Source: Rhodobacteraceae bacterium HTCC2150
GTDB taxonomy: Bacteria > Pseudomonadota > Alphaproteobacteria > Rhodobacterales > Rhodobacteraceae
DNA length: 64,000 nt
Assembly (NCBI GenBank): GCA_000169395.1
Contig: AAXZ01000003.1
Span: forward strand, 186,001 to 250,000
Direction: 5' to 3'
Positions 269 through 13,590 of the stretch are shown here, piece after piece (within the stretch, counting starts at the first letter, position 1; every line of letters starts with the position of its first letter). A model generated the notes under the pieces. It made no database searches. It saw only the letters and a program-made list of their open reading frames with translations, and was not told the origin of the DNA. Both the position numbers and the translations under genes were made by a program.

Positions 269-3200
269 TTAAAAAATAAACGAATCGACCAACAGACTGT
301 AGTCGCCGTCCGAAAAGTCGTGGTTAGTCTGTAGTGTCACGCTTTGCCCAAAGCCGAGTTTCAATAGCGCGTCATTATCGTTGGTCCAAGACAAGCATCT
401 CTCTCGCCACGCATCCGTACTCTCATAGGATTCGAGAAGCGATAAGTCAGTGAGATCAAGGCTATCCGCCGAATCCCCATAACAATTAAAATCCAACACC
501 GTGTCATGATGGGAGCCATTGTCAGACAGGAAAACAAATGTATCCGCTCCTGCACCACCAGAAATCATGTTTTGGCCTGCACCAGCCTCGATCAAATCAT
601 CGCCGGAGCCACCAAAGATTGTGTCCTTCCCCGCGCCACCAGAGATCGTATCCGCACCTGCATCGCCATGCAGCGTATCGTTACCTTGATCACCGTTGAT
701 TTGATCATTATCTGAACCACCGTGCAATTCATCATTGCCGCTGTTGCCCGACAGGAAATCTTCTCCACTGCCGCCTTGCAAAAGGTCTTTGCCGCGTCCA
801 CCCAGCAGCATGTCGCTACCTTCTTTGCCGCTCAGGGTATCGTTGCCTGACCCACCATCCAACTGGTCCGCTCCGGCGCCGCCATCGAGAACGTCATTTC
901 CGTTGCCACCTTCCAATTGGTCGGCATCCGCGCCCCCGTCCATTACGTCGTTTCCAGAGCCACCAAAAAGCTGGTCTTCTCCCTCATCACCAAAAAGCTG
1001 ATCACGACCTGCGCCGCCAAACAACTGATCCGCTCCCTCGTTGCCTGAGAGCGTGTCATTGCCAGTTTCGCCGTACACCACATCGGCGCCGAACCCGCCA
1101 AAGGCAAGATCATTGCCGCGTCCACCATTTACCTCGTCAGTGTCTTCACCACCGTACAAGCTATCATTACCAGAGCCGCCAAAGAGGTGATCGAACCCGG
1201 AGCCGCCGAAAACCAGATCCTGACCCGCTTCCCCGTTCACTGTGTCGTCACCGATCCCACCAATGATGTCGTCGTGACGTCCTCCACCATAGATCTTGTC
1301 GTCGCCATCGCCGCCAAAGATGACGTCATCCCAGCCTTCCCCTTCCAGTTCCGCCACTACAATATCCCGCATCAACACCTTTGCGGTGGCATCTATCTCA
1401 GCGAAAGGGTCATTCCCGCGTGGGTCAACTGCGCCATCATTGTTGCCGGTTGTCTGAGCCGATGACATGAACACAGCCTGTGCGTATTGGCCAGTTTCAC
1501 CGACGTCGATGCGGTAAATCCCGCCCGATTCAGCTGTGTCCTCCGCCAGATCATGGTCACCCGAATTCAGCCCTGCATAGAGGTTGCCCGAGCCGTCTAC
1601 GAAAACGGCGCCATAAGCTCCTTTCGCCATGCCGATTAACGTAACATCCTCAACAAAAGTCTGTGTGATTGGGATATCGGAAACGGTCGGTATGCCGCCG
1701 TTTTCGACATCAGCCAGATCGATGATTAGAATCTTTCCATCTTCGCCATTTGATTGGGGTGCCACAACGCCATAGAACAGATCAGTTTGGTGGCTGTAAG
1801 CGACGTCAAAGATGTTTCCGTTGCTCAGATTTGCGGGCAGCGCAAAGTTCTCTATCGCAGGGTTGCCCTGTGCATCCAGTGCATTGACATCAATCTTAGT
1901 GACACGATCCAGTGAACTGTCAAAAGTCCAAAGATTGCCCGCGTCGTCAAAGTCACCAACAAAGTCTGCGTATTGCCCATCGCCAAGCTTGTAGATTGCG
2001 CCAGTTGCATCCATCATCACCAGACTGTTTGGCGATACTGATACACCAAGTGCGTCCGTACCGTCAGCCTTTGCGTAGCCGTAGATCAAATCATCCTGAA
2101 CGTTCAGTCCAATAGCATTTACTCTGACCCCAGTCTCAGGACCCGCGACAGTATAGCCTTGCGTGACGGTATCAAAAATCTGTAATTGACCCGAGATAAC
2201 CTGCAGCAACTTGGACTGTCCCGGCGCAAAGCCAGAAACCATGATATCTCCATCCCCAAGGTCAACAGTTTTTTCATAAGAGTAGATCGGTCCACTGGTG
2301 TCATAGATCGATGCTGCGTTTGAATCAGGATCAGCGGTGCTTATCGCGATCGCGGTGTCCGCTCCAAAGCCCTGTACTTCATAGTTCAGAGTACGAAATT
2401 CGCCACTGCCCACTTCGATCTTATCGATGACCTGGTCGTTCCACAGCACCTCAATAGCACCAGATGTGAACCCACCAGCAAAGTTAGCAGCAACATCAAT
2501 GCTCACTTTGTAAGTCTTTTCGGATTGCGTATCTATGACTTGAGACATCTTGGTCTGGCCAGTGTCACTATCCTGGGTAACCGTCCAATCCGCACCCTCA
2601 AACTGCGCAACAGACAAACCGACCGAGGTGTCCTCACCAGCCAGCAGGTTATCAGGTAGTTTGTCGCCGTAGATGACATCGTTACCTATGCCACCATCCA
2701 GCGTGTCTTCGCCGGCGCCACCCACCGCATAGTCATTGCCCTCATGGAGGTTGATCTTGTCGTCTGCTGTGCCACCGTATGCGACGTCATGCCCGAGACC
2801 GGCGTTTAGGATATCTTCGCCGTCCTCTCCACGTAGTAGATCGTCCCCTTCATCACCTTGAAGTAAGTCGTTGCCGGTCCCGCCGCGCAAAGCATCTGCG
2901 TCAGCGCCGCCGTAAAGCATATCGGCTCCGGCTTCGCCCATGAGAACATCGCGCCCCGTTCCACCGAGAACTGCGTCGTTTCCGGTGCCCCCAAAAAGAC
3001 TGTCATCACCATCAGCTCCATAAAGAAGATCCGTGCCAAAGCCACCGTAAGCGGCGTCGTTCTGCGATCCGCCGTCGAGTGTGTCGTTTCCGGTCCCGCC
3101 AAAAAGTTGATCAGTATCCAAGCCACCATGAACGTAGTCGGTCCCCTCCTGCCCATAAATCACGTCCGAATCGCGTTGCCCAAAAAGCCGGTCATTGCCG

Positions 3201-3562
3201 GATTGGCCATGGATCTCATCCGTGCCGGACCCACCCCAAATCTGGTCATCGATGCCGCCAGTTCCCTGCGCTGGAGCGTTTGAAGTCAGAACGTCGCCGC
3301 CAAAGAGCACATCATCGCCGGACCCACCGTAAATCCGGTCCGATCCATAGTCGCCGTTGACCGTGTCGTCACCGGTGCCCGCATAGGCACGGTCCTCGTC
3401 TCCGCCTAGTGACACTAAGTCCGAGCCGCCACTGCCAAACACTTTGTCCTGGCTGCCGGAGGTCGAGATAATGTCATCTCCGCCCTTGGCAAAAACGGTG
3501 TCTTTGCCCGCGCCACCGTTCAGATCATCGTTTTGCGACGTACCATAAATTTTCCCTGACAT
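269..3562 (-). CDS. RTX repeat protein, calcium-binding, probably type I secreted
   Basis: This 1,097-residue protein is dominated by glycine- and aspartate-rich RTX nonapeptides (GGxGxDxux), which fold into calcium-binding parallel beta-rolls outside the cell. Two RTX blocks, about residues 10-310 and 775-1010, flank a central region of about 450 residues without repeats. That region starts beta-sandwich-like and continues with propeller-like strands (for example LLQVISGQLQIFDT and GNLYAGLN). The C-terminus has the ADTFVF and VLDF motifs and a hydrophobic tail typical of uncleaved type I secretion signals, and there is no N-terminal signal peptide. ATG at 3562 is preferred because AAAGG lies 8 bases upstream, while the alternative GTG at 3571 overlaps that site. 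No ABC exporter is adjacent. No catalytic motif was recognised in the centre, so its activity is unknown; adhesion or surface-layer roles are possible. Confidence 0.9.
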   Translation of the reverse strand: MSGKIYGTSQNDDLNGGAGKDTVFAKGGDDIISTSGSQDKVFGSGGSDLVSLGGDEDRAYAGTGDDTVNGDYGSDRIYGGSGDDVLFGGDVLTSNAPAQGTGGIDDQIWGGSGTDEIHGQSGNDRLFGQRDSDVIYGQEGTDYVHGGLDTDQLFGGTGNDTLDGGSQNDAAYGGFGTDLLYGADGDDSLFGGTGNDAVLGGTGRDVLMGEAGADMLYGGADADALRGGTGNDLLQGDEGDDLLRGEDGEDILNAGLGHDVAYGGTADDKINLHEGNDYAVGGAGEDTLDGGIGNDVIYGDKLPDNLLAGEDTSVGLSVAQFEGADWTVTQDSDTGQTKMSQVIDTQSEKTYKVSIDVAANFAGGFTSGAIEVLWNDQVIDKIEVGSGEFRTLNYEVQGFGADTAIAISTADPDSNAASIYDTSGPIYSYEKTVDLGDGDIMVSGFAPGQSKLLQVISGQLQIFDTVTQGYTVAGPETGVRVNAIGLNVQDDLIYGYAKADGTDALGVSVSPNSLVMMDATGAIYKLGDGQYADFVGDFDDAGNLWTFDSSLDRVTKIDVNALDAQGNPAIENFALPANLSNGNIFDVAYSHQTDLFYGVVAPQSNGEDGKILIIDLADVENGGIPTVSDIPITQTFVEDVTLIGMAKGAYGAVFVDGSGNLYAGLNSGDHDLAEDTAESGGIYRIDVGETGQYAQAVFMSSAQTTGNNDGAVDPRGNDPFAEIDATAKVLMRDIVVAELEGEGWDDVIFGGDGDDKIYGGGRHDDIIGGIGDDTVNGEAGQDLVFGGSGFDHLFGGSGNDSLYGGEDTDEVNGGRGNDLAFGGFGADVVYGETGNDTLSGNEGADQLFGGAGRDQLFGDEGEDQLFGGSGNDVMDGGADADQLEGGNGNDVLDGGAGADQLDGGSGNDTLSGKEGSDMLLGGRGKDLLQGGSGEDFLSGNSGNDELHGGSDNDQINGDQGNDTLHGDAGADTISGGAGKDTIFGGSGDDLIEAGAGQNMISGGAGADTFVFLSDNGSHHDTVLDFNCYGDSADSLDLTDLSLLESYESTDAWRERCLSWTNDNDALLKLGFGQSVTLQTNHDFSDGDYSLLVDSFIF

Positions 3563-3571
3563 CGCACACAC

Positions 3572-3912: not shown

Positions 3913-4743
3913 GGGTTCTGTCGCAAAGTTTCACGGGCGGTATCTATTCAGTTCCGGTTGTGGGATGTATTTTTGAAAAGAGCTGCAGGCGGGGCCCCTT
4001 CATGAGCATCGATTTCAAAGGCGCACATTATCCAAAAGCGGTGATCATCCACGCCGTGTTTTTCTACGTCCGTTATGGCGTGTCTTATCGTGATCTCGAA
4101 GAGATATTGGCCAAGCGTGGTGTGGCCGTCGATCACACCACGCTGAATCGCTGGGTCGTGAAATATGCGCCGTTGATCGCCGCAAAGGCCCAGGCCAAGA
4201 AGCGATCTACAAGCGTTTCCTGGCGGATGGATGAAACCTACATCAAGGTGAAAGGCAAGTGGATGTATTATTATCGAGCCGTCGATAAGTTTGGCAAAAC
4301 CCTTGATTTCATGCTCTCTGAGCGCCGAGACAAAGCAGCAGCCACCGCATTCTTTACCCGCGCAATAGGCAACAACGGCTTCCCCGACAGAGTTGTGATC
4401 GACAAAAGTGGTGCCAATCTCGCCGGGCTACAAAACATGAATTGCTTGCTGATTCTAAATGGATGGTTCTGGCTGGTCGAAGTGTTGCAGGTCAAATATC
4501 TCAACAATATAATTGAGCAGGACCACCGTTTCATCAAAAAGTTGACACGACAGGTGAAGGGGTTCAAATCCTTCAACTCAGCCTCGGCGACACTGGAAGG
4601 CATCGAAGTCGCCCACATGATCCGCAAGCAACAATTTGAGACGTTGGGCCAATCCGCATTCAAGCAATTTGCTGCTCTCGCTGGATAACTATGTCTAGCC
4701 AAATCGATGAATCCGCAGCCCGTCAAAACTTGCAACAGAACCC
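3913..4743 (+). mobile_element. IS6-family insertion sequence
   Basis: This 831-bp element is bounded by near-perfect inverted repeats. The left end reads GGGTTCTGTCGCAAAGTTT (3913-3931), and the right end is its complement with small differences, ending at 4743. The sequence GGnTCTGTnGCAAA is typical of IS6 (IS26-like) ends, and the element carries a single transposase gene. The 8 bases outside the left end (cctttgaa) and the right end (ataaagtt) differ, so no target duplication is visible. That is expected if the copy arose by cointegration or if flanking DNA was later deleted. Confidence 0.9.
4002..4688 (+). CDS. IS6-family transposase
   Basis: This 228-residue DDE transposase catalyses replicative transposition of the surrounding element. 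The catalytic triad is visible as WRMDETY (first Asp), VVIDKSG (second Asp) and NNIIEQDHR (Glu, followed by the family's RRxK-like region). The N-terminal part reads YPKAVIIHAVFFYVRYGVSYR, typical of the IS6 helix-turn-helix. ATG at 4002 gives the usual family N-terminus MSIDFKG; an in-frame GTG at 3960 would add 14 residues without a better ribosome site. Length and motifs look intact, so the copy may be active. Confidence 0.9.
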   Translation: MSIDFKGAHYPKAVIIHAVFFYVRYGVSYRDLEEILAKRGVAVDHTTLNRWVVKYAPLIAAKAQAKKRSTSVSWRMDETYIKVKGKWMYYYRAVDKFGKTLDFMLSERRDKAAATAFFTRAIGNNGFPDRVVIDKSGANLAGLQNMNCLLILNGWFWLVEVLQVKYLNNIIEQDHRFIKKLTRQVKGFKSFNSASATLEGIEVAHMIRKQQFETLGQSAFKQFAALAG

Positions 4744-4925: not shown

Positions 4926-5886
4926 CGGGACACTTCCTGTAAACTCCCTTATTTAGGGATGGAGGAAGTTTCCATGACGAACGAAGAACGCGACATTCAA
5001 CGCAAATTGAGGGTGCTTCAACACGCCGAAAAGATCGGCAATGCCCGCAAAGCCTGTCGGTATTTTGGGATTGGGAGATCCAGCTTCTATAGATGGCGGG
5101 ATGCGTATCAAAAGCATGGCGAATCTGGTCTGAAGAATGCCAAATCTATTCCAAAGAACCCTGCCAATCAAACGCCGCCAGAGATCGTGGAGAAGGTTCT
5201 GTATCTACGCCGCAAGTATCACCTCGGGCCCATCAGGATCGTCTGGTATTTGGCGCGCTATCACGGCATCAAAATCTCGGATGCAGGGGTTTACCGTATC
5301 CTCAAGCGCAATGGTCTCAACCGACTACCCAGAGGCACACGAATGCGTAAATTACACACAAAACGCTATCAGAAACAGGTGCCAGGACACCATATCCAAG
5401 TTGACGTCAAGTTTCTGACATTCAAAGGAAAACGCGGCGAGAAAGTACGCCGCTTCCAGTTCACCGCGATCGATGATGCGACAAGAGTTCGGGCCCTTAA
5501 GATCTACGAGAAACACACGCAGGCAAGCGCAATCGACTTCATTGATCACATCATTGAAAAGTTCCCGTTCCGTATTCGTGAAGTGCGGACAGATAACGGC
5601 CACGAGTTCCAAGCCAAATTCCATTGGCATGTTGAAGATGTTGGGATCAGGCACGCCTACATAAAACGCGGCACGCCCCAGTTAAATGGAAAAGTGGAGC
5701 GATCTCACCGATCCGATCAACAGGAGTTCTATCAGCTCCTGAGCTACAAGGGTGATGTCGATCTCGAGGCCAAGCTGGACGAGTGGGAACGGTTTTACAA
5801 CTTCGCCAGACCACACGGCGCGCACAATGGGCAGACCCCTTACGAAGCTCTCAGAGACAAGCTACAGTAACCCCACAAGTGTCCCG
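4926..5886 (+). mobile_element. IS481-family insertion sequence
   Basis: The element is about 960 bp long. CGGGACACTT at 4926-4935 is matched by its complement AAGTGTCCCG at 5877-5886, which is the usual kind of end for this family. It encodes one transposase in the same direction. The exact outer boundaries may extend two or three bases further on each side. No convincing target duplication was found. Confidence 0.8.
4974..5870 (+). CDS. IS481-family transposase
   Basis: This is a transposase of 298 residues. The N-terminal helix-turn-helix (about residues 10-60) contains ARKACRYFGIGRSSFYRWRD, followed by an HTH_29-like linker and an rve integrase core. The catalytic residues appear as QVDVKFL (first Asp), VRTDNGHEF (second Asp) and LNGKVERSHR (Glu). 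ATG at 4974 is chosen because GGAGGA at 4961-4966 sits 7 bases upstream; the in-frame ATG at 4959 would place that site inside the gene. The frame is intact, so the element may be functional. Confidence 0.9.
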   Translation: MTNEERDIQRKLRVLQHAEKIGNARKACRYFGIGRSSFYRWRDAYQKHGESGLKNAKSIPKNPANQTPPEIVEKVLYLRRKYHLGPIRIVWYLARYHGIKISDAGVYRILKRNGLNRLPRGTRMRKLHTKRYQKQVPGHHIQVDVKFLTFKGKRGEKVRRFQFTAIDDATRVRALKIYEKHTQASAIDFIDHIIEKFPFRIREVRTDNGHEFQAKFHWHVEDVGIRHAYIKRGTPQLNGKVERSHRSDQQEFYQLLSYKGDVDLEAKLDEWERFYNFARPHGAHNGQTPYEALRDKLQ

Positions 5887-6627: not shown

Positions 6628-7968
6628 CTATTTCACCTTCATCATGGGCCAAACACCCAACTGATCGTAGAAAACTTGACGGTACATCTGTTCAGCTTGC
6701 TCTCTATGTTTGAGAGGTACGATGATGCTGTCATGAATAGGCAGTACCCCTATCCCGTGCTCTAGTAACTGCTCCATCGTTACCCTCAGCACCTCAGCCT
6801 CACGATAGTTTAAGTAAGCCCAATCCATGTGGCGTTTCTTAAGCATTCCAATCTGAGGCATACCCCTCATCATGGCTGACTTTATGTCGTTCCACGGGAT
6901 AGTTGAGGCTACGTCTGGATGGTCGTCTTTTAGAGCCTTTGGATGCTGCTTTTGAGTGAGAGCCCCGTTCCCTAAGCTAGAGGTAAAGATAGTCTTCACG
7001 GCCTCCCGTGTAAGCTGTGGCAGGACATCCACAACTGCCTGATAGTAATCGAAGCACTCTCTGTCGTTTAGCCTGTTCTTGCTTACGTAAAGACCGAACA
7101 AGACTGATGGGATTGAAGACACAATGTCGATCTCACAACAGACTTCACCATCAATACGGAGTGTGTCCAAACGAGTAGCTGAAGGCATGGTTTGAACGGG
7201 AGAATGGTATCTTCCATAGTTTTTGATGTGACTCTTAAATAGCCTCGTCAGGGGCTGAAACTTTGCACTGCGACCTTTGATTATGATCCCACTGTAGTCG
7301 TGCTCTGCCATGGCCCTGCGTAGCTGTACGACCCCGTCAGAGACCTTACTCCACTCCTCTTTCGTCGCTTTCTCGTACTTGAACCGTAAGCCTTTAGCCT
7401 TCTCAGCTTTGGACTTCGTCCTCTCTGAAAACCTGATTGGTCTGTACGTCAGATCGTCATAGGGATCGTGCTTCAAACCAGACTGTAGCTCTTCAAACTC
7501 AAGCTCTTGATCTGGGATTAACGAAAGCAACTCATCTGATGGTCGATACCTTGGGGCTAGATTATCGACTGCTAGTGCCGAGGGATCAGAAACACGTATC
7601 AAGTGACCATTATTGATCAGATCACCTATGATATTGTGAAACGCTGTGTAGCCAACCTCATAATTGAGTTTGTTGTAGTTACCCCTGTTCTTCTGGAAGA
7701 AGATCAGATCGTCATCACCATCTAAGATGGCCTTAACCAAAGCCGATATTACGATCTTAGCTTTCCTACGTTTCTTAAAAGCTCTACGATCACCTAGAAG
7801 GCTAGGGCTAAGGAGTGACAAAATCGGATCAAGAAGAACAGGCTTTAAGTCTTCATTATCACAGGTCTCTATCCAAGCAGGAATGACCATCAAACCCGTT
7901 CTTCGTTCATCGTTTATCTCTTTCATTGTTCTAGAACGAAAGGTCTTAGACTGGGCGGAAGAAGTCAT
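6628..7968 (-). CDS. Compact family A / T7-like polymerase-related protein
   Basis: This 446-residue protein is not a standard annotated gene. Its C-terminal half shows the ordered motifs of single-subunit polymerase palms. Motif A is CEIDIVSSIPSVL with Asp281. A motif-B-like helix TREAVKTIF...LGNG has Arg321 and Lys325 at the spacing seen in T7 RNA polymerase and Pol I (R-x3-K), ending in Asn334-Gly335. Motif C is LPIHDSIIVP with His412-Asp413-Ser414. The N-terminal 200 residues are basic and helical and may bind nucleic acid. No 3'-5' exonuclease, primase or helicase domain was seen, and the A-to-C distance is shorter than in Pol I. It lies alone in a mobile-element-rich region, which suggests a plasmid, phage or defence origin. 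Polymerase activity is inferred from motifs only. Confidence 0.6.
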   Translation of the reverse strand: MTSSAQSKTFRSRTMKEINDERRTGLMVIPAWIETCDNEDLKPVLLDPILSLLSPSLLGDRRAFKKRRKAKIVISALVKAILDGDDDLIFFQKNRGNYNKLNYEVGYTAFHNIIGDLINNGHLIRVSDPSALAVDNLAPRYRPSDELLSLIPDQELEFEELQSGLKHDPYDDLTYRPIRFSERTKSKAEKAKGLRFKYEKATKEEWSKVSDGVVQLRRAMAEHDYSGIIIKGRSAKFQPLTRLFKSHIKNYGRYHSPVQTMPSATRLDTLRIDGEVCCEIDIVSSIPSVLFGLYVSKNRLNDRECFDYYQAVVDVLPQLTREAVKTIFTSSLGNGALTQKQHPKALKDDHPDVASTIPWNDIKSAMMRGMPQIGMLKKRHMDWAYLNYREAEVLRVTMEQLLEHGIGVLPIHDSIIVPLKHREQAEQMYRQVFYDQLGVWPMMKVK

Positions 7969-9279: not shown

Positions 9280-9655
9280 TTGGCTATCTTCGACGAGTTC
9301 ATCACATCCATACGAACTGAGTTTGGTGAACAGGCAGCGGGTAAGAAGTTTGAGGTCTTCTGCAAGTGGTTCTTAGAGAACGATCCTGAATGGTCCAAGA
9401 CTGTCGATAAGGTCTGGCTGTGGGATGACTATCCAAACAAATGGCAACGTCAGGACTTAGGGACTGACCTCGTCTTCAGTGACAAAGAAGGTCTGATCTG
9501 GGCCGTTCAAGCCAAGTGCTATGGTGAACATAGAACGACCACAAAAGGTGATATGAACTCCTTCTTGGCTGATACTGGGCGTAGGGAAGTTGATCGTCGC
9601 CTTTGGATGCAGACTACCAATAAGATGGAAGCTAAGGCTGACAAAACCCTCAAAG
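9280..9655 (+). pseudogene. N-terminal nuclease part of a COG4889-type restriction helicase, cut by IS3
   Basis: About 125 residues remain of a much larger protein. They match the N-terminal Mrr-like endonuclease of type ISP / COG4889 restriction-helicase proteins. Landmarks are FEVFCKWFLENDPEW, VWLWDDYPNKW and the PD-(D/E)xK core GTDLVF...IWAVQAKCY, with Asp63, Gln77 and Lys79. Start is TTG 9280 with ACAGG 9 bases upstream. The frame runs into the IS3 end at 9655, and nothing resembling the helicase, methylase or target-recognition parts appears beyond the element. The far side was therefore lost or deleted. Function as a phage-defence enzyme is abolished. Confidence 0.75.
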
Positions 9656-9718
9656 TGGACCTGTCACGGTTTGATGCCGCTCCTTTGATAGCATTTACTG
9701 CAGCAAAGGAGACTGACT

Positions 9719-9994
9719 ATGGTACTGAAACGGACGGACGAATTCCGCCAAGATGCAGTGCGGATCGCGCTGACCAGTGGGCTGACGCGCAAGCAGGTGG
9801 CGGACGATCTTGGCGTCGGCATGTCGACACTGAACAAATGGATCACGGCGCATCGAGACACGGATTTGGTGTCAAAAGAGGATTTAAGCCTCGCCCAAGA
9901 GAATGACCGGCTTCGACGTGAGAACCGCATTCTCAAGGAGGAAAGGGAAGTGTTAAAAAAGGCCACGGTGTTCTTTGCGAGCCAAAAGCCATGA
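9719..9994 (+). CDS. IS3-family transposase OrfA
   Basis: OrfA is a 91-residue DNA-binding partner of the transposase. It has a helix-turn-helix in residues 20-45 (TRKQVADDLGVGMSTLNKWI) and a C-terminal leucine-zipper-like coiled coil (ENDRLRRENRILKEEREVLK). In this family OrfA overlaps OrfB and a -1 frameshift yields the OrfAB transposase. Here OrfA ends at 9994, overlapping the OrfB start at 9991 by ATGA. OrfA itself is intact. Confidence 0.85.
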   Translation: MVLKRTDEFRQDAVRIALTSGLTRKQVADDLGVGMSTLNKWITAHRDTDLVSKEDLSLAQENDRLRRENRILKEEREVLKKATVFFASQKP

Positions 9995-10845
9995 GGTTTA
10001 AGTTTATCGAAGAACACCGATCTGCATTTTCCATTGAACTGATGTGTCGGGTCATGGCTGTCAGTCCGCGCGGTTTGCGGGCGTATCGCAGCCGACCTGC
10101 CAGCCGCAGACAGCGGTCTGATATGGTGACGTTGGCGCACATTAAAGAACAATCGCGCCTGAGCTTGGGCAGCTATGGCCGCCCACGCATGACAGAAGAG
10201 CTGAAAGAGATTGGCCTTGATATTGGTCACCGCCGTGTTGGGCGTTTGATGCGCCAGAATGGCATATCAGTGATCAGAACACGCAAACATAAGGTGACGA
10301 CAGACAGCAATCATAAGTTCAACATCTCGCCGAACCTACTGGAGCGTGACTTCAACGCAGATGCGCCAAATCAGAAGTGGGTTGGTGACATTACCTATAT
10401 CTGGACGCGTGAGGGCTGGTTGTATCTGGCCGTGATCCTCGATCTTCATTCACGGCGTGTGATCGGCTGGGCGTGAGCAATCGGATGAAACGAGACCTGG
10501 CAATCAGGGCGTTGAAAATGGCTATCGCGTTCCGCGCACTGCAAAAGGCTGCATCCATCACACTGACCGTGGCAGCCAATATTGCTCACACGATTACCAA
10601 AAGATCTGCGCCAGCATGGCTTCAAAGTATCCATGTCTGGCAAAGGCAATTGCTATGATAATGCCGCCGTCGAAACCTTCTTCAAAACCATCAAGGCGGA
10701 ATTGATCTGGCGCGATAACTGGGAAACCCGCAGGAAGGCTGAGATGGCGATCTTCGAATACATCAACGGCTTCTACAATCCACGACGACGCCATTCAGCA
10801 TTAGGCTGGAAAAGCCCTGTCGCATTCGAACGAAAGGTGGCTTAA
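9991..10845 (+). pseudogene. IS3-family transposase OrfB with three single-base deletions
   Basis: The integrase core is recognisable, but the reading frame breaks three times. The first part ends after HSRRVIGWA near 10472, where a G is missing and gives TGA. The frame shifts again near 10535-10540, and the catalytic HTDRGSQY is then read from 10556. A third base is missing near 10606 (ATCTGC where ATCCTGC is expected). After that the original frame resumes with SMSGKGNCYDNAAVETFFK to the end. The DDE residues survive in WVGDITYI, HTDRG and the final Glu region, but no single frame links them. All three losses shorten a doubled G or C, so sequencing error must be considered. Confidence 0.85.
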
Positions 10846-10884
10846 ACGAGCACCGGGGGCGGCACAAAAGCGCGACAGGTCCAC

Positions 10885-12946: not shown

Positions 12947-13590
12947 GCTTCAGAAAATGTCAAATAATTATTCTTCGATGCCTTTGGCTTCTTCGTCATC
13001 TCGATCTCCTAATTGTTAAGATGAACCAGAAACACTCCATTATTCAAATACTCATATTTGTTCCAAAGGCGCTGACGTCAAACAGTCTCTGGGAGGGGTA
13101 CTCCCCTTCTGCTTACTTCTTTATCTGCTACCAAAGTTGACCAACAACAGCACTTTTCAGCACCGTTTCAGGGTAGGTTTTTGATGTTTTTATGAGTTCA
13201 TTTCGGAGGCAGTTTTAGCCTCTTTTTAGGGCTATGTCTGCTGGTTTTGATACTTCAAAGGAGGCTTTGACACCCCCAATTAAGCAACTTTTTGTTAAAT
13301 CTGGCTGTGCTTTTACAGGGCTTCTAACGTCATTTCTTTTGACATTAGAGCCACAAGTTCTGGACCTGTTTCGGACCCAAACCTGAGAAGCGAGGGTCTT
13401 CGAATATCCCGCCCGGCTTGGCGCAAACAGACGCTAAGCAAAGCGCAGGGAGCCGATACAGGGGGCAGTTTTAGGGGTGGCCCTATGTTTAGGGTAGATG
13501 GCTCTTAGAGGGCCACTTTGGGTACTCTCTGGAGGTGCTAGAAAAGATGACATCAGCAACTATACCGACCTTTCATACAGGGTCTCACAC
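12947..13590. other. Non-coding gap, possible decayed downstream gene
   Basis: A short ORF starts at ATG 12957 and stops after 20 codons (MSNNYSSMPLASS...). A second frame then stays open with DLLIVKMNQKH, which looks like a frameshifted start of a gene that followed the adaptor. No ribosome site is clear and no family was established. GGCAGTTTTAG recurs near 13210 and 13461. The rest shows no recognisable feature. Confidence 0.35.

Follow-up and report, generated by a model that had tools for sequence, protein, structure and literature searches.

The window analyzed here, 64 kb of DNA, contains on its minus strand an open reading frame that starts with an ATG at position 7968, ends at 6628 and encodes 446 amino acids plus a stop codon. 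The frame and its neighbors are listed in Table 1. The residues that the initial annotation had numbered in motif A, motif B with the following LGNG, and motif C were all placed correctly.

Table 1. Features of the polymerase-like gene and its surroundings in the window
Feature	Position	Strand	Evidence
IS6/IS240-type transposase	3960-4688	+	Pfam DDE_Tnp_IS240, E=1.7e-38
rve_3/HTH integrase-core transposase	4959-5870	+	rve_3, E=1.1e-14
TV-Pol / divPolA2-type family A polymerase-like protein	6628..7968	-	ORF; phrog_4756, E=3.8e-14; Foldseek hits on family A DNA polymerases
Polymerase core, residues 241-446 (hairpin, palm, fingers)	6631..7248	-	pLDDT mostly above 85; aligns with family A DNA polymerases
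Motif C, H412-D413 (IHDS)	6730..6735	-	His in 124/129 homologues; Asp in 126 of 128-129
Motif B, R321-x3-K325	6994..7008	-	Arg in 123/129, Lys in 128/129
D307, conserved fingers-region Asp	7048..7050	-	Asp in 121/129
Motif A catalytic Asp, D281 (EIDIVSSIP)	7126..7128	-	Asp in 127/129
R253, beta-hairpin GRxY motif (window: YGRYHSPVQ)	7210..7212	-	Arg in 128/129
N-terminal region, residues 64-145, helix-helix-helix-strand-strand, winged-helix-like, proposed DNA-binding module	7534..7779	-	DSSP of the model; N-terminal family model
Mrr_cat_2 restriction endonuclease fragment	9280-9906	+	Pfam Mrr_cat_2, E=1.4e-25
IS3-type element	about 9656-10883	+	HTH_21/rve; the Mrr_cat_2 fragment runs into the element

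The conservation of these motifs in the family is far above chance. Two further residues, G252 and R266, are invariant across the 129 aligned homologues, and the proposed check on D281 and D413 found both nearly invariant in the aligned family (127 and 126 of 129). Nine of the 129 homologues deviate in the set R253/D281/R321/K325/D413, all of which the window protein retains. At the same time, its branch is long, it shares no more than 23% identity with any other sequence of the alignment, and neither the GGWWQ nor the NA(K) signature is present in it.

The fold was predicted with AlphaFold2, template-free, from 26 family sequences, and the model had a mean pLDDT of 76.8. The palm strands are present, and R253 lies within a strand (253-255). 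Foldseek retrieved 101 PDB matches at E<=1e-3 (best E 8.8e-7), and each of the 50 listed matches is a family A DNA polymerase (Taq, Bst, Klenow, apicoplast or mycobacterial). The whole-chain TM-scores were low (about 0.33 when normalized by query length), since the C-terminal half alone corresponds to family A polymerases. Among viral models, the Barba31A 'DNA polymerase' of 435 amino acids was one of the best fold matches. No exonuclease or nuclease domain was found by Pfam in the 446 amino acids. The model, the Foldseek matches and the conserved motifs thus bear out the initial description of a compact, exonuclease-free, palm-type protein related to family A and T7 polymerases, for which a predicted palm fold had been named as a check.

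Comparisons of sequence profiles with Pol I were at most suggestive. A profile-profile comparison with alphaproteobacterial Pol I brought motif A alone into register and had no significance, and an HMM of the 129 sequences reached best E-values of 0.07-0.5 against Pol I, barely exceeding shuffled sequences. Therefore, the link to Pol I rests on structure and motifs, i.e., on motifs A, B and C and the palm/fingers fold. In contrast to Pol I, the window protein has neither a 5'-3' nor a 3'-5' exonuclease and no PF00476 match in Pfam. The host genome contains one PF00476 match, an ordinary Pol I on another contig (C25:697977), and the window protein is distinct from this enzyme.

Proteins with these features were described in 2008 by Iyer, Abhiman and Aravind as the TV-Pol family, which is characterized by a hairpin Arg, two palm Asp, a fingers Asp and RxxxK, the absence of a nuclease and a length of 400-600 amino acids (PMC2579912). 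According to that study, the hairpin Arg before motif A is absolutely conserved, members occur in Alphaproteobacteria including Loktanella, Roseovarius and Paracoccus beside integrase, resolvase or IS genes, and primase plus polymerase activity was predicted (PMC2579912). The window protein shares the two metal-binding Asp in an RRM-type palm, the hairpin Arg, the fingers Asp, RxxxK and the lack of a nuclease, and it resembles the subset that has an N-terminal globular domain and lies beside integrase, resolvase or IS genes. There are also differences. The TV-Pol thumb, a coiled coil of two antiparallel helices (PMC2579912), was not clearly seen in the window protein model, in which one long helix (203-220) lies ahead of the hairpin and a helical pair is not clear. 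One TV-Pol subset is linked to a D5-like helicase (PMC2579912), whereas none was present among the element genes scanned here; the subset bearing the N-terminal domain was defined without this helicase (PMC2579912). By shared features and shared organisms, as given in the published description, the window protein fits the TV-Pol family.

A second description, from 2024, concerns divPolA2 of barbaviruses and related phages. This protein likewise has about 430 amino acids, an active palm, no exonuclease and an unrelated N-terminal domain, but its carriers are large phages with their own normal DNA polymerase, and the passages considered do not mention bacterial integrative elements (PMC11348598). 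One protein retrieved with the family profile (L142) shares 72-73% identity with Barba phage proteins, and, on sequence grounds, the family studied here includes phage divPolA2. As both TV-Pol and divPolA2 had already been described, the window protein is best regarded as a member of a known family, and not as the new branch of polymerase that had been considered. In addition, relatives of another member (L130) are carried by 222 phage records, including Vibrio phage ICP1, and many phages of Vibrio, Aeromonas and Rheinheimera are among the family carriers (H35-H40 and others), with the annotation 'hypothetical protein' in the rows listed.

The family has a PHROG, 4756 (unknown function), which the window protein matches with residues 201-434, but no Pfam or NCBIfam model; for the window protein and nine relatives no meaningful Pfam or NCBIfam family match was found, with the exception of the HTH_3 tail of L021. 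Thus, three separate descriptions, alphaproteobacterial TV-Pols, phage divPolA2 and PHROG 4756, are joined here as one family that lacks a Pfam model. Within the class, 24 of the 289 genomes sampled contained PHROG 4756 matches, a count that takes in dead copies and one true Pol I (L031, E 2e-4), as did 25 of 398 genomes of a phylum sample. A scan with alignment A2 yielded 324 relatives encoded on bacterial genome contigs, the best 80 of which are mostly from Rhodobacterales and SAR116, and 25 encoded on viral contigs; the diversity of alignment A1 was too high for pattern searches. Single-protein scans of genome and viral contigs with the window protein as query retrieved no relatives because it is too divergent. 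The PDB sequence search gave nothing useful, and plasmids contained no DNA-level match to the window copy. Four further family members are encoded in the host genome, two of which share about 30% identity with the window protein in the core region.

The N-terminal region lies outside the C-terminal half that was matched in the fold comparison, and it was modeled separately. A model of 17 N-terminal regions had a pLDDT of 80. A comparison of this family model with the PDB gave no match at E<=1e-3, and the weak best matches were mostly PadR/MarR-type winged-helix regulators and a replication terminator protein. The region might therefore be winged-helix-like and putatively DNA-binding, whereas the N-terminal domain of TV-Pols had been called all-helical (PMC2579912).

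The positions that exclude ribose in Pol I were located by their distance from the conserved Asp and Lys. The site equivalent to Glu710 (position 286, +5 after the motif A Asp) is His in 111/129 homologues and Ile in the window protein, the Phe762 site (position 329) is Leu in 96/129 and Thr in the window protein, and the Tyr766 site is Asn in 112/129 and Gly in the window protein. A tested enzyme for comparison is CCPol of SCCmec, which as of 2020 was the sole TV-Pol tested (PMC7581432). CCPol retains the equivalents of Glu710 and Phe762 (PMC7581432), whereas both are replaced in the present family. With the ribose-exclusion residues replaced, sugar selection is possibly changed and may differ from that of CCPol; the named residues predict a different sugar choice. 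A loss of ribose exclusion at the Glu710 and Tyr766 sites would also suit an RNA polymerase with a T7-like mechanism, which would transcribe element or phage genes or make RNA primers and whose N-terminal domain would recognize a promoter. The GRxY reading of the hairpin is a further point in favor of this alternative, and in Dali comparisons divPolA2 models also matched RNA polymerases, mitochondrial and of N4 (PMC11348598). Nevertheless, we consider an RNA polymerase unlikely, as every one of the 50 listed PDB matches is a DNA polymerase and the elements described below have a size of just 6-15 kb. The spacing between the hairpin Arg and the motif A Asp is also short; with 28 residues in the window protein, it resembles that of Pol I more than that of T7 RNA polymerase.

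The genomic context of relatives was informative. Of the 33 alphaproteobacterial relatives whose context was complete to about 10 kb on either side, 30 lie within 10 kb of a tyrosine recombinase gene. The background frequency, 272 PF00589 matches over about 114 Mb from 31 related genomes, would predict about 0.05 per 21 kb. The nearest recombinase has a median distance of 2.3 kb from the family gene. Seventeen elements, with sizes from 6.4 to 15.1 kb and a median of 10.5 kb, could be delimited between exact direct repeats of 17-73 bp (L039, L045, L069, L075, L078, L093, L094, L098, L103, L104, L106, L117, L152, L153, L157, L161 and L162); in most cases the repeats lie at a gene for a tRNA (Leu, Val, Thr, Ser, Gly, Cys). 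The attachment sites are less certain for L157, with the repeat beside and not inside the tRNA gene, and for L106, where no tRNA was called; repeats at L042, L061, L096 and L148-L150 were left uncounted. The same direct-repeat test was negative for all 154 control flanks, although these come from an AT-rich lineage. Each of the 17 elements contains one or two integrase ORFs together with the TV-Pol gene, which in L069 is split into two ORFs. The same plan was found at a Sphingomonas plasmid locus, which comprises an integrase, an HTH protein, the family gene, Vsr, HNH and a cytosine methylase and is bounded by repeats at tRNA-Leu. The association with mobile elements that had been noted for the window is thus supported for the family, and the window copy itself adjoins IS elements. 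The location of bacterial relatives in small tRNA-inserted elements with defined ends is new, and the tRNA-bounded ends are added here to the TV-Pol description.

In the four elements examined, which carry restriction-modification or OLD-type cargo, the genes include those for DNA methylases, a type III restriction helicase, HNH, NERD and OLD-like proteins, and Cro-type regulators. Among ten element proteins scanned, there was no D5-type helicase, relaxase or capsid gene, and the scan recognized no other replication gene. The neighbors did not include a small partner gene that recurs, and the recurrent neighbor is the integrase. The element context and the lack of another recognizable replication gene make the TV-Pol a candidate replication factor, and with bounded elements it is the obvious one. 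The catalytic residues and the predicted fold support template-directed strand synthesis. Thus, we favor, with some confidence, the interpretation that these proteins are TV-Pols that act as replication proteins of small integrative elements, as putative origin-directed primase-polymerases. The N-terminal domain would recognize the origin of the element. At this site the palm would synthesize a primer or a short strand, with D281 and D413 serving in two-metal catalysis. The host helicase and replicase could then extend the TV-Pol product, so that the excised element would be copied ahead of reinsertion or transfer.

A precedent is CCPol-MP of SCCmec, also a family A palm in a mobile element (PMC7581432; Rice 2023, PMC10061031). 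In complex with its partner MP, CCPol starts strands without a primer, and this primer-independent synthesis needs D169 and D324 (PMC7581432). A replicase or primer-independent role of the present family, as raised in the initial annotation, is therefore plausible by analogy. However, CCPol needs the OB-fold partner MP and is in an operon with a helicase (PMC7581432; PMC10061031), while neither an MP-like partner nor a D5 helicase was identified next to the gene studied here. The priming and copying predicted for TV-Pols in 2008 are now directly testable. In phages the role need not be replication, because the large phages with divPolA2 also encode a normal DNA polymerase (PMC11348598).

The presence of another DNA polymerase in these phages and the variable phage neighborhoods (PMC11348598) would also agree with a repair or lesion-bypass polymerase that is cargo of mobile elements and large phages, and so would a compact, exonuclease-free protein. 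Yet the TV-Pol is present across the repeat-bounded elements while the cargo varies, as for a core gene, although the loci were found via the polymerase and its presence there is by selection; on balance, a repair function has a small chance. The initial suggestion of a defense component, e.g., an effector that performs abortive synthesis on phage DNA, has scarcely any probability. Relatives do share elements with restriction-modification and OLD-like genes, but these defense genes are cargo of the same elements, whereas the polymerase itself matches no PADLOC model, has the integrase as recurrent neighbor and no fixed defense partner, and has members in many phages (222 records).

The window copy differs from the delimited elements. 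Its flanks contained no exact direct repeat of at least 14 bp in the span tested, no integrase was found within 10 kb, and the window has no tRNA gene. Because it lies among IS elements without an integrase within 10 kb, the copy was probably left behind, as an orphan, when its element decayed. A copy on contig C13 matches the IS3-type element of the window with 99.7% identity. That the window copy is itself a decaying, non-working remnant, which would be compatible with the family being replication proteins, is a serious possibility somewhat short of probable: the IS flanks, the missing integrase, the long branch and the missing GGWWQ and NA(K) signatures speak for it, whereas the frame is full-length and all catalytic residues are retained. 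Two other features of the window were observed. A repeat-rich acidic protein of 1100 amino acids with GGxGxD-type repeats (269-3571, minus strand) adjoins the IS cluster. A repeat of about 100 bp at 12989-13084, about 5 kb from the window gene, occurs with 81-84% identity near the family copies L147/L148 and L149 of the same genome.

A different situation was found in one streamlined alphaproteobacterial lineage (f9) with genomes of 0.9-2.0 Mb. A single homologue per genome, mostly of 455-490 amino acids, is present in 26 of 32 genomes, including 5/5 near-complete ones, and these homologues form one clade (L027, L029, L030, L188-L198). In 14 sequences the hairpin Arg is present in at most one, and the RxxxK pair and the motif C His in none, whereas 12 still have the motif A Asp. 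The neighbors were identical in 12/12 sampled loci (L215-L226): folD and a small membrane protein gene on the upstream side, and downstream a cNMP-binding gene that starts within about 25 bases, followed by oxidoreductase, pab and ccm genes (folD, the small membrane protein gene and the latter genes were named by reading the sequences). No tyrosine recombinase was found in 226 kb around these homologues. Judged by the residues lost and the shared neighbors, they are catalytically dead, resident and syntenic. The identity within f9 is 58% for the N-terminal domain and 34% for the former polymerase part, the inverse of active members with 28% and 37%, respectively. With its inverted conservation, this lineage has the look of a former polymerase whose DNA-binding half was put to a new use.

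A joint reading of both situations is speculative and, taken as a whole, rather unlikely. Single-chain initiator-primases, each with a winged-helix origin-binding domain and a family A palm stripped of the ribose-exclusion residues, would start the replication of defense-carrying tRNA-inserted elements without the SSB partner or helicase used by CCPol. The dead f9 protein, vertically inherited beside a cyclic-nucleotide-binding protein, would have kept mainly the DNA-binding half and would be putatively regulatory. Further predicted losses lie outside the dead clade, in the full-length members L020 (host genome, C24:457812-458924), L091, L097 and L109, each with at least one catalytic residue altered. 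In L020 the motif A Asp is changed to Asn and the Arg of RxxxK to Cys.
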